Shown here one piece after another: positions 12,539 through 37,275 of a stretch of DNA of 37,404 bases; within the stretch, counting starts at the first letter, position 1, and each line of letters begins with the position of its first letter. The DNA lies in assembly GCA_023248295.1 (NCBI GenBank), contig JAHFEU010000004.1, positions 1 to 37,404 on the forward strand, in the 5' to 3' direction. The position numbers were made by a program, and so were the translations under genes. This stretch comes from Nitrospirota bacterium. Its GTDB lineage: Bacteria; Nitrospirota; Nitrospiria; Nitrospirales; Nitrospiraceae. Under the pieces are notes generated by a model. The model ran no database searches and was not told where the DNA came from. It worked only from the letters and a program-made list of their open reading frames with translations.

Positions 12539-12718
12539 GTGGTGTGCCAGGACTCTTCGCTTCCGCACCTCTCGGAGCGACCCTTCCGGGCTTTGCCGGG
12601 CGGAAGCCTTCGGAAATTCCTTCGCGGACTCAGTCAGTTTCCGCTTTCCTTCCCGGCAAAGCCTCGGTGGAGTACCCCGCTCCTCCGGTGAAGTCAGCTC
12701 AGAATCCTGGCACACCAC
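12539..12718. repeat. 180-nt full-length imperfect hairpin element (MITE-like)
   Basis: The ends are 18-bp inverted repeats with one mismatch (12539-12556 with 12701-12718, GTGGTGTGCCAGGA at the outer edge). Inside, GGCTTTGCCGGG (12589-12600) pairs with CCCGGCAAAGCC (12652-12663), and CGGAAA (12611-12616) with TTTCCG (12638-12643). All pairs share one centre near 12627, so the whole element folds on itself. It begins just after the mutase stop codon. No obvious target duplication and no coding content. Confidence 0.75.
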
Positions 12719-17698: not shown

Positions 17699-18286
17699 CT
17701 CCCCGCCTTCAACTTCCTTCATCAATTCACTTATGGCTCTTCCGGAAATCGTGGCGGGTCAGTTCCGGTCCGTCAGGGCGAGGCATTCCGCTCCGTGCCG
17801 GCTCGCCGCGCTGCTGTAGCGAGCGGCGGCCCGGCTCCGGCTCCCCCCATCCCCCAGCGGGGGTTCGCCGATCCGCTCCGGTCTGGTGCGACAGCCCGAA
17901 GCGGTCGGGCCTCGCTCGGGTCGCCGCTGCGCACACCAGCGGGGCTCCCCCGCAAGGTCGCGTCACCCTCGCCCCGACGGCCTCGATCGTGCTTCCTGGC
18001 TCAGGCCAAGGCTGCAAGGGCTGGGCGCGGAGGGTCGTCGTCCTCGCGGGACTCATGACAGGGGTGGCCTGGCTGATCCCCTATTGCGCGCGTCCAGCGA
18101 GCACCTTCTTAGGTGCGCGATGCGCGAGCACGGGGGATTAGCCTGGCCGCCCCGCTTCTTTGCCCTTTGTCAGCCGAGGTGGCTTTTTCCTGAAGTCTCT
18201 ACCTACGCGAAAGCCGGAGGAGCCTCAATTATACCCATCCTGGCGGAACGGAAGATGTCGAGCGACCGGGCCGGGAGCCCCGCGAG
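17699..18286. other. 588-nt non-coding, palindrome-rich spacer
   Basis: The gap separates the convergent meaB and GGDEF-ATPase genes. I find no credible gene: the short open frames here give arginine/proline-rich, non-homologous peptides. It is very GC-rich in 17780-18000 and holds small hairpins such as CCCCC-AGC-GGGGG (17851-17863), then a 93-nt hairpin (18061-18153). A weak AGCC...GGCT stem with a run of T follows at 18172-18188 and may act as a terminator for either gene. Confidence 0.65.
18061..18153. repeat. 93-nt imperfect hairpin
   Basis: The 22-nt outer arms (18061-18082 and 18132-18153) pair except for one U-U mismatch and three G-U wobbles. The apex is a 6-bp stem GCACCT / AGGTGC (18101-18106, 18111-18116) with a TCTT loop, and CG-rich words GCGCGCG / GCGCGATGCGCG in between. 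The structure is too long and self-complementary to be chance. It could be a dispersed palindromic repeat or a structured RNA. Confidence 0.7.
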
Positions 18287-35734: not shown

Positions 35735-36100
35735 TCAATAGGCCTGCTCCTCGATGTACTCGATCAGGGCCTGGTAGGCGAGCTCGCGGGTCCTTGCCTT
35801 CGACAGGGCCGGGCCGGCCACGTTCGTCTCGAGCCAGACCCGGTCCTTGATGGGGGCTTGGGCCTCGTTGCAGAGCGTCCACATGTGATGTAGGAAGCCA
35901 TCGGGGAGGCCCACCTGAACGCCTTCTGACTCGCTCCGGTCGTCCAGGATCGCCATCAGGTCCGAGATGGCCTGATCGGGCCGGTACGGAGTCGGAGTGA
36001 ACCCAAAGGACCGCTGCGCCTGCGCCTCTTGGCGGGCCTGCTCGACCAGATCACGCATGTATTCCTTCAGCAAGCCGATCACGTGGCCAGTGAGTTTCAT
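35735..36100 (-). CDS. Hypothetical protein, 121 residues
   Basis: Not recognised. Mostly helical, with EYMRDLVEQARQEAQAQRSFGFTPTPYRPDQAISDLMAIL and a C-terminal TRELAYQALIEYIEEQAY. The frame stays open to 36184, but residues before the ATG at 36100 would be encoded by a heptad repeat array (MKRISSETSRDTR...), so I start at 36100. No good ribosome site at either. It ends 23 nt before the sugar dehydrogenase start on the same strand, so they may share a transcript. Confidence 0.6.
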   Translation of the reverse strand: MKLTGHVIGLLKEYMRDLVEQARQEAQAQRSFGFTPTPYRPDQAISDLMAILDDRSESEGVQVGLPDGFLHHMWTLCNEAQAPIKDRVWLETNVAGPALSKARTRELAYQALIEYIEEQAY

Positions 36101-36128
36101 AAAAAGCCGCGAAGCGGCCCGGAAAAAC

Positions 36129-36205
36129 GTCGCTCGCATCTCGCATCTCGTATCTCGTGAAGTCTCTGACGAGATACGCTTCACGAACGACGAGATACGA
36201 TTCCC
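36129..36205. repeat. Heptad-phased repeat array C (inverted)
   Basis: Exactly 11 consecutive 7-base units with no phase slip. The left half is built from G[CT]ATCTC (36136-36156), the right half from its complement GAGATAC (36171-36177, 36192-36198), so the array is a heptad-phased imperfect palindrome centred near 36164. Lies in the divergent gap between the 121-residue gene and the YkgJ gene. Confidence 0.85.
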
Positions 36206-36281
36206 GCGCCTTGCGGGGCGGATGGCGCCATTATCCTCGACGGCCGCGCTGGTGGCAAGACCGGGAAGGCAGCGGGTTGGC

Positions 36282-36311
36282 TTGACCCATTCGCCGGGCC
36301 TCCTCTAAGAT
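36282..36311 (+). promoter_or_regulatory. Candidate sigma-70 promoter for the YkgJ-family gene
   Basis: TTGACC at 36282-36287, 18-bp spacer, TAAGAT at 36306-36311: the best -35/-10 pair in the window. Transcripts would begin near 36318 and carry heptad array D in their leader. Confidence 0.55.
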
Positions 36312-36347
36312 GAGGCAGCCAAGGGTGAAACATGAGGCTCGGCGTCC

Positions 36348-36403
36348 GTATCTCGTCGCTCGTATCTCGCGAGAGACGCTTCACGCTTCACGAGAGACGA
36401 TTC
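36348..36403. repeat. Heptad-phased repeat array D (inverted)
   Basis: Eight consecutive 7-base units without slip: GTATCTC, GTCGCTC, GTATCTC, GCGAGAG, then ACGCTTC twice, ACGAGAG, ACGATTC. Ends 4 nt before the ATG at 36408, so it forms the 5-prime leader of the YkgJ gene. Shares words with array C. Confidence 0.85.
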
Positions 36404-36407
36404 TCCC

Positions 36408-37190
36408 ATGACTGAGCAGTCAGTTGAGCGGCTCGAGGTGTCCGTCAAGACACCGGCGGGCTTGCTCACCACGCCGGTCGAGGTACCGACCGGCTTCGTC
36501 CCGGTGACCGCAATCGTCCCGCTCATGCGCCGGATAGGCGAGCAAGCTCAGGCGCTGGAGGAACGGAAGGCAATCGCCGCCGGGGAGGCGATCTCCTGCA
36601 AGAAGGGCTGCGCCGCCTGTTGCCGCATGCTGGTACCGGTGTCGGCCCCAGAGGCGTTCGCGCTCAGGGACATGCTCGCGAAGATGCCCGCAGGACGCCG
36701 GCAGGCAACGGTCATGAACGTGGCGGCGGCACGGGCACGTCTGGAACAAGCCGGTCTGCTCGCGCGCCTTACCGAGATTGCCGAGACGGGCCGGCAACTC
36801 TCGGACGAGGAGATGGAGCCGATCAACCGCGACTACTACGCGCTCCGGATGCCCTGCCCGTTTCTGGAAAACGAGGTCTGCTCGATCTACGAGGATCGGC
36901 CCGCCGCCTGTCGCGAGCTGCTGGTCACCTCGCCGGCGGAATTCTGTCAGGACATGGTCAGCAACCCCGTGCGACCGCTTCCGGTCCCCGTCAGGATAAG
37001 CACCGTGCTGGGGCTGCTGTGGTCGGAACTGTCGGGCGGACCGGCCCGACTGATTCCGCTTCCGGTCGCGCTGGAATGGGCTGAGCGCCATGCCCCCGAA
37101 GGCGCGGGGACCTGGAAGGGCGCGTCTCTGTTCGAGAACGCGCTGGACAAGGTCTGGCGGTTGTTAAATGCCGTGACGCGTGACAAGTGA
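36408..37190 (+). CDS. YkgJ-family cysteine-cluster protein
   Basis: 260 residues. The zinc/iron-chelating cluster uses C64, C68, C71, C72 (CKKGCAACC) and C150, C158, C168 (CPFLENEVCSIYEDRPAACRE). The family binds Fe-S or zinc; biological role is poorly known. The last residues VTRDK and the stop codon fall within heptad array E, so the repeat seems to have replaced or extended the original C-terminus. No conventional Shine-Dalgarno; array D abuts the start. Confidence 0.87.
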   Translation: MTEQSVERLEVSVKTPAGLLTTPVEVPTGFVPVTAIVPLMRRIGEQAQALEERKAIAAGEAISCKKGCAACCRMLVPVSAPEAFALRDMLAKMPAGRRQATVMNVAAARARLEQAGLLARLTEIAETGRQLSDEEMEPINRDYYALRMPCPFLENEVCSIYEDRPAACRELLVTSPAEFCQDMVSNPVRPLPVPVRISTVLGLLWSELSGGPARLIPLPVALEWAERHAPEGAGTWKGASLFENALDKVWRLLNAVTRDK

Positions 37191-37255
37191 CGCGTGATGA
37201 GACAGGACGGCGCGTTTTCCCTAACCTGTCACGCGTGACGCGTCACCCGTCACTG
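37173..37255. repeat. Heptad-phased repeat array E (two inverted blocks)
   Basis: Block 1 (37173-37200) is four units GTGACGC, GTGACAA, GTGACGC, GTGATGA; block 2 (37228-37255) is GTCACGC, GTGACGC, GTCACCC, GTCACTG. The blocks are inverted copies and can fold into one long imperfect hairpin with CCTGTCAC facing the left block. It spans the end of the YkgJ gene and the gap before thrH, and may act as its terminator. Confidence 0.8.
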
Positions 37256-37275
37256 TTTCCTGAAAGGACAGAATC

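Follow-up and report, generated by a model that had tools for sequence, protein, structure and literature searches.

Two arrays of 7-nt units stand on either side of a promoter-like motif in a Nitrospirota genome. The question they raise is whether such arrays are a peculiarity of one locus or copies of something more widely distributed. The window (the whole stretch of DNA analysed, 37,404 nucleotides) is contig C86 of a 2.5-Mb genome in 220 contigs, labelled G000. A preliminary description correctly recognised the mixed tandem and inverted heptad architecture; rather than being a local oddity, arrays C and D each represent one copy of a repeat that is dispersed and occurs across phyla. The element is very small (about 40–100 bp), non-coding and quasi-palindromic, and both of its arms consist of degenerate heptads, i.e., CG plus a 5-nt word. 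On balance, we consider it probable, by a modest measure, that the arrays represent a tolerated, non-autonomous, horizontally spread quasi-palindromic repeat, which gains and loses heptads in register.

Arrays C and D and their locus

The motif TTGACC-N18-TAAGAT is flanked by arrays C and D, one on each side and without being interrupted, array D being the downstream one (Table 1). The small gene is divergent from the gene for the CxxCxxCC (YkgJ-type) protein, an arrangement that is repeated in several relatives. Array D ends 4 nt upstream of the ATG of the CxxCxxCC gene and, as previously described, probably sits in its 5′ leader. A third heptad hairpin, written in another lexicon, is located between this gene and the one that follows. 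Comparison with the Rfam covariance models gave nothing above the gathering score, the only sub-threshold matches being to MIR1883 over 37169–37257.

Table 1. Positions of the features discussed (positions are those of the window unless a locus label precedes them)
Feature	Position	Strand	Remarks
Array C, dyad heptad element	36128..36206 (CG-anchored)	.	The genome has similar copies at other loci (window 36124-36192)
Centre (loop) of array C	36156..36169	.	CGTGAAGTCTCTGA; between left and right arms
Promoter-like TTGACC-N18-TAAGAT	36282..36311	+	Putative promoter ahead of the CxxCxxCC gene; also conserved in related genera
Array D, dyad heptad element	36347..36403	.	Sequence and word reading in the text
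CxxCxxCC (YkgJ-type cysteine cluster) gene, 260 aa	36408..37190	+	PF03692, E 1.4e-7
Small divergent gene	35735..36100	-	Start 28 nt from array C; no match in Pfam
Third heptad hairpin, other lexicon (GTGACGC / GTCACGC)	37170..37255	.	Between the CxxCxxCC gene and the next gene
Longer multi-copy intergenic repeats	L112 10923-11268; L118 1993-2309; L114 3991-4140; L039 7665-7832; L063 12540-12688		
Other dispersed intergenic repeats	L055 near 9055; window 12549-12699, 17731-18158		

The left arm of array C reads CGTCGCT CGCATCT CGCATCT CGTATCT and the right arm CGAGATA CGCTTCA CGAACGA CGAGATA CGATTCC, which gives four left words (TCGCT, CATCT, CATCT, TATCT), the centre TGAAGTCTCTGA, then four right words (AGATA, CTTCA, AACGA, AGATA). 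The reverse complement of the centre, TCAGAGACTTCA, resembles TC[TA]GA[GT]TCTTCA, the family centre common to many copies, and the orientation of array C is “minus” relative to the G000 consensus. Its left flank is an A-tract, GGAAAAA. Array D reads CGTATCT CGTCGCT CGTATCT, then CG, then CGAGAGA CGCTTCA CGCTTCA CGAGAGA CGATTC, with the words TATCT, TCGCT, TATCT on the left and AGAGA, CTTCA, CTTCA, AGAGA on the right.

The preliminary description had counted 11 heptads in array C, all in phase, and the CG-anchored reading agrees: a single heptad phase is kept throughout, even over the 14-nt centre. It had also stated that the units never slip phase, which does not apply to array D, where the 2-nt centre CG shifts the phase by 2 nt. 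Its further claim, that left units are complemented on the right, stands for word class and falls for word order: TATCT/AGATA, the innermost pair, is the sole exact complementary pair at mirrored positions in array C, and array D, the arms of which are class-complementary, has no such pair. Strict phase and one-to-one complementarity were overstated, above all for array D.

Abundance, polarity and word order

Heptad periodicity was assessed in 450 intergenic regions (143 kb) of G000, counting a window when 22 or more of 35 positions matched at lag 7, with dinucleotide shuffles as the null. This comparison with shuffled spacers, proposed in the preliminary description, was passed decisively: there were 59 clusters at lag 7 compared with 0.6 in the shuffles, with echoes at lag 14 (28) and lag 21 (13), and no more than 10 at any of the remaining lags from 4 to 24. 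The counts for G000 cover 860 kb of its 2.5 Mb, and since the contigs sampled were enriched for the motif ACGAGATACG, element densities are not genome averages. Genome-wide, this motif was counted 143 times, compared with 8 for the reversed control; in the 860 kb, clusters of at least two lexicon words numbered 63, compared with 0 in the control. An assembly artefact, which had been suggested as a possible explanation, can be set aside, because the arrays, in many contigs, each stand among unique genes, and their words are found again in independently assembled genomes, one of which entered the databases as one 1.1-Mb chromosome record (L094). A resemblance of CGTATCTCGT to an Illumina adapter was discounted on similar grounds, since the arrays are embedded within contigs, each among unique genes, and are seen again in genomes assembled separately.

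The T-class words TATCT, TGAAG, TCGCT, TCGTT and TCTCT are located to the left of the centre and their complements (the A class) to the right. This polarity is observed in 357 ordered pairs in G000, with 0 exceptions, and equally without exception elsewhere: 43:0 in G017, 67:0 in a deltaproteobacterium (G276), 43:0 in a member of the Omnitrophota (G270) and 30:0 in a member of the Latescibacterota (G271), or 283:0 in a larger sample of the latter. Within arms, successive words of the same class are 7 nt apart in 159 of 205 cases, and many of the others are at larger multiples of 7. The phase is often broken at the centre of the element, where offsets of 21, 23 and 26 nt are all common.

In G000, a centre of the TCTGAGTCTTCA type, or a relative of it, is common to copies at many loci, which points to copying; thus, the element disperses. 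Some copies are embedded in larger multi-copy repeats. Intergenic multi-copy repeats of 150–350 bp contain the heptad element with the centre CAACCAATCCTAACATA or its reverse complement. The lag-7 arrays within G000 divide into several lexicons, and 52% of them have an inverted repeat (IR) score of at least 11, the corresponding figures being 2% for shuffles and 13% for the remaining intergenic DNA.

The order of the words within the arms is not random. The innermost word in the elements of G000 is usually TATCT/AGATA, and the second-word pairs are complementary in 2 of 32 elements compared with 7.8 expected, i.e., the arms are not mirror images. In Latescibacterota, there are two unlike arms, one rich in AGATA and the other rich in CTTCA, and the innermost pairs are complementary in 3 of 28 compared with 12.2 expected; these comparisons treat the copies as independent, although they are related. 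Identical neighbouring words are rarer than expected in G000 (18 compared with 47.6; for distinct arms, 16 compared with 25.6, P=0.012), and an excess of identical neighbouring words was not seen in the other genomes. According to the explanation we favour, an array, once placed, would gain and lose 7-nt units through replication slippage, and the heptad register would be kept because the fold-back arms align on CGT/ACG anchors. Against this, slippage predicts an excess of identical neighbours, whereas G000 shows a deficit. The rarity of identical neighbours in G000 and a word order that is non-random beyond class both fit poorly with plain slippage, and are compatible with a protein that recognises the words.

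Folding, gene context and turnover

In RNA folding, array C was more stable than its shuffles (z −2.6), as was the hairpin at 37170–37255 (z −2.7 to −4.2), whereas array D showed no gain over its shuffles (z between about −0.4 and −0.7). Permuting the word order within arms gave −26.2 kcal/mol, compared with −24.6 kcal/mol for the real order (p=0.003, related copies again being treated as independent), so the real order is the less stable; flipping the word class gave −14.7 kcal/mol, a loss of about 10 kcal/mol. As permutation stabilises slightly and the class flip destabilises, the dyad is real at the level of class but is not tuned as a hairpin. Selection for a perfect hairpin is ruled out for this lexicon by the permutation of word order. 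Perfect complementarity may have been avoided, or may have been lost again, and a plausible reason is the instability of long perfect palindromes in DNA. An a-b-a′-b′ pseudoknot, suggested by the word order, was set aside, since its connecting loops would not be long enough to bridge the stem.

These results bear on the idea of a function in RNA, in which the arrays would form hairpins in leaders and trailers and act in attenuation, mRNA stability or control of translation, with the hairpin being selected and its sequence free. The folding of array C and of the 37170–37255 array is in keeping with this, as is the recurrence of independent palindromic arrays, with differing periods, beside the same promoter in related genera; in Nostoc, heptads of two unrelated classes take each other's place within the single P6b stem (PMC4476775). 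However, it is the leader array, D, that folds no better than shuffles, the real word order is less stable than the permuted, many related genera lack an array at these sites, and gene orientation is unbiased. We consider this idea quite improbable. According to the explanation we favour, array D would be a tolerated insertion between the transcription start and the start codon, and not a dedicated riboregulator.

The gene context was analysed for 56 elements of G000 with at least three words, with genes from a simple ORF caller. The elements are intergenic: none of the 56 was inside a predicted gene. Where genes were called on both sides, 39 of 48 elements were between tandem genes, as in the background, and the whole of a short gap was often filled. 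The orientation of the neighbouring genes showed no bias compared with the background, and there was no concentration between convergent genes. In some copies, the hairpin is preceded by an A-tract or followed by a T-tract (in array C, GGAAAAACG), as in bidirectional intrinsic terminators. Such tracts are few: at least four T were found in the right flank in 3/56 and at least four A in the left flank in 4/56, where the background is about 2% each per 12 nt, and terminator-oriented tracts in tandem pairs were not enriched (1 compared with 2). A general terminator function is not supported by the counts of tracts and gene orientations, and we consider bidirectional termination a most improbable explanation of the arrays.

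The turnover of the arrays can be seen at orthologous sites. G017 and G000 have about 74–86% nucleotide identity in aligned stretches. In one orthologous gap, the core and centre are the same, the outer heptads differ, and CTTCA is repeated (an expansion) in G000; the adjacent gap has this lexicon in G000 and a GTGACGC-type array in G017. The remaining gaps that could be compared hold different repeats in G000, or no recognisable feature. Of the comparable G017 sites, about four in number, only one retains the element in G000. Other dispersed intergenic repeats, e.g., TAGCCCGGATTATTCA...TGAATAATCCG (Table 1), fill gaps which hold heptad arrays in relatives.

Across related genera, the flanks of the CxxCxxCC promoter are occupied by unrelated palindromic arrays of 7, 8 or 9 nt, or by none. 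Other heptad lexicons are present in the leader in G012, G003 and G006 and upstream in G024 and G009. Palindromic 9-nt arrays flank the promoter in G031 and are present in the leader in G005; thus, a 7-nt period is not a requirement of the architecture. The final 20 nt or so before the ATG in G031 match the window, and the remainder of its leader array differs. An array was not detectable in the promoter flanks of G004, G019, G020, G030 and others. The leader arrays with a 9-nt period (L132 in G005 and L125 in G031) are of the TCTGGTTTR and GCGTCNNNN types. Beyond the 3′ end of the CxxCxxCC gene, heptad arrays of other lexicons occur in loci from G028, G006 and G009, and an 8-nt array in one G017 locus.

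Distribution across phyla and known heptad repeats

The exact dyad CGTATCTCG-N12-CGAGATACG was found in only 3 of the 270 genomes searched in the class; when the search was extended to about 85,000 species genomes, matches came from Omnitrophota, Latescibacterota, Planctomycetota, Auribacterota, a deltaproteobacterium and Nitrospirota. Most of these matches have further words of the lexicon, in phase, on both sides (Omnitrophota 36 compared with 0 at six shifts; Latescibacterota 12 compared with 0). The matches in Prevotellaceae, Myxococcales and one planctomycete are few, are without in-phase words, and look like chance. The motif CGAGATACG-N5-CG outnumbers its control by 266:4 in Latescibacterota G271 and by 73:0 in Omnitrophota G270, and five core words make up 26–67% of the array words in six of the seven genomes sampled, about 1% being expected by chance. 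The centres differ between phyla. Because the loops of Nitrospirota are unlike those of other phyla, and a weak resemblance (P=0.005) is limited to Latescibacterota and Omnitrophota, the loops argue weakly, and for that one pair only, for transfer of whole elements.

It has been considered whether the arrays arose by neutral local evolution only, i.e., by lineage-specific slippage and fold-back template switching without a mobile element, in which case the shared words would be convergent. Many unrelated lexicons share one architecture, both within G000 and in its relatives, as this would predict, and work cited in PMC4679880 and PMC4692102 reports that heptads are over-represented among the longer simple repeats of many bacteria, an excess ascribed to polymerase slippage. 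Convergence is difficult to reconcile with centre sequences common to copies at many loci, and with one lexicon dominating the arrays in several phyla, and we regard purely local evolution as very unlikely.

The sharing of words also bears on the word-reading protein. The arrays could be polar clusters of binding sites, arranged head-to-head round the centre, for a putative protein that binds DNA or RNA and recognises CG-anchored words, and the conservation of words across phyla would then reflect the specificity of that protein. This would account for the perfect class polarity, for exact words being kept across phyla despite different centres, for the non-random word order (the innermost pair in G000, the unlike arms of Latescibacterota and the two deficits of complementary pairs), and for the real order being less stable than the permuted. 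However, there is no candidate protein, the exact dyad occurs in so few of the related genomes, equivalent sites in relatives hold unrelated lexicons, and the word grammar could also be obtained from common ancestry of the copies; such clusters are therefore, in our view, rather unlikely. A broader proposal combines reading with spread: a single horizontally shared “heptad code” element, with AGATA-rich and CTTCA-rich arms, in at least four phyla, which would be written, moved or read by a putative protein specific for CG-anchored words. We put this forward tentatively, as a doubtful possibility.

According to the explanation we favour, copies would have been moved by a trans-acting or recombinational process and would have passed between phyla. 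A search of plasmids for lexicon arrays gave no match, and one of 2.9 million IMG/VR contigs had an intergenic array of this lexicon. The contig, IMGVR_UViG_3300027917_002994, is classed as viral, and the array is at L242 4122-4151. The analogous dispersed repeats known as REPINs (palindromic, non-autonomous and intergenic) depend on the RAYT transposase (PMC3116915). A Y1 (RAYT-type) transposase was considered as the mobiliser and was rejected, there being no association in the 10 genomes searched: Y1 transposases are few, few lexicon words are near Y1 genes, no Y1 matches were found in the lexicon carriers G009 and G270, and the one match in G000 is without lexicon words nearby. Dispersed palindromic intergenic copies are shared with REPINs, whereas linkage to RAYT is not, and the heptad arms are multi-word. 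The orthologous-gap comparisons with G017, in which a MITE would be marked by a target-site duplication, yielded neither such a duplication nor a clean empty site, and no mobilising enzyme was found for the heptad element. The single Y1 transposase gene of G000 (L216, contig C42) has its own ends of the GAAAAGGTGTCAGGAACCTTTTTC type, unrelated to the heptads.

Cyanobacteria have short intergenic heptad or palindromic repeats, known as STRRs and small dispersed repeats (SDRs). These are from other taxa and appear to have another lexicon. The closest known counterparts are the STRRs, the inverted GGGAATC arrays of Xanthomonas and P6b of the tRNA-Leu(UAA) intron of Nostoc and Calothrix, the last of which contains base-pairing degenerate heptads of class I (TDNGATT) and class II (NNTGAGT) (PMC3488679, PMC4476775). 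As in the present element, the two sides pair as a hairpin, the copy number is variable, and unrelated heptad classes replace one another at one site. The 7-nt period and the complementary classes on opposite arms were found here, whereas the P6b consensus motifs were not: in 860 kb of G000, there were 0 doublets of TDNGATT, and 17 of NNTGAGT compared with 17 in the reversed control. Moreover, P6b is one structured intron locus, whereas the present element is a dispersed intergenic repeat with a different lexicon.

Xanthomonas has 70–75 inverted pairs of GGGAATC arrays per genome, and the GGGAATC and GGGGA(C/T)T arrays of Xanthomonas and Nostoc are intergenic and vary in length and sequence between related species (PMC4692102). 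These have a single G-rich unit (a G-quadruplex), in contrast to the multi-word lexicon with class polarity described here; doubled GGGAATC was absent from the 860 kb of G000. Together with the pairing stems of P6b, these inverted arrays contradict the earlier assertion that known heptad repeats are direct only. In Beggiatoaceae, TAACTGA repeats fill short gaps just upstream of start codons and are patchily distributed in distant groups, for which horizontal transfer has been suggested (PMC4679880). They are direct repeats of one unit, for which a hairpin is not predicted, whereas the present arrays are inverted and multi-word, and 860 kb of G000 contained 0 doublets of TAACTGA.

Thus, inverted heptad arrays are already known in other bacteria, and it is the word set, the strict polarity and the spread that appear to be undescribed: no earlier report of this lexicon, or of heptads in Nitrospira, was found in the open-licence literature. 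Among degenerate heptad palindromes, the element is distinguished by a lexicon of several words, by the strict polarity of its word classes, by arms that are unlike and by words shared across phyla. Reports of heptad repeats have repeatedly concerned single taxa, with polymerase slippage as the usual explanation. Zero violations of polarity, one lexicon in distant phyla, unlike arms, and flanks of the same promoter recurrently filled by unrelated arrays go beyond slippage alone. The reports on Nostoc P6b, STRRs, Xanthomonas and Beggiatoaceae can, therefore, be joined by the questions of what makes and moves dyad heptad arrays, and of their effect on genes with array-filled leaders. G000 also has, at L119 8941 and L034 12445, palindromic heptad arrays of GCTGAGT/ACTCAGC, which match the Nostoc class II consensus NNTGAGT.
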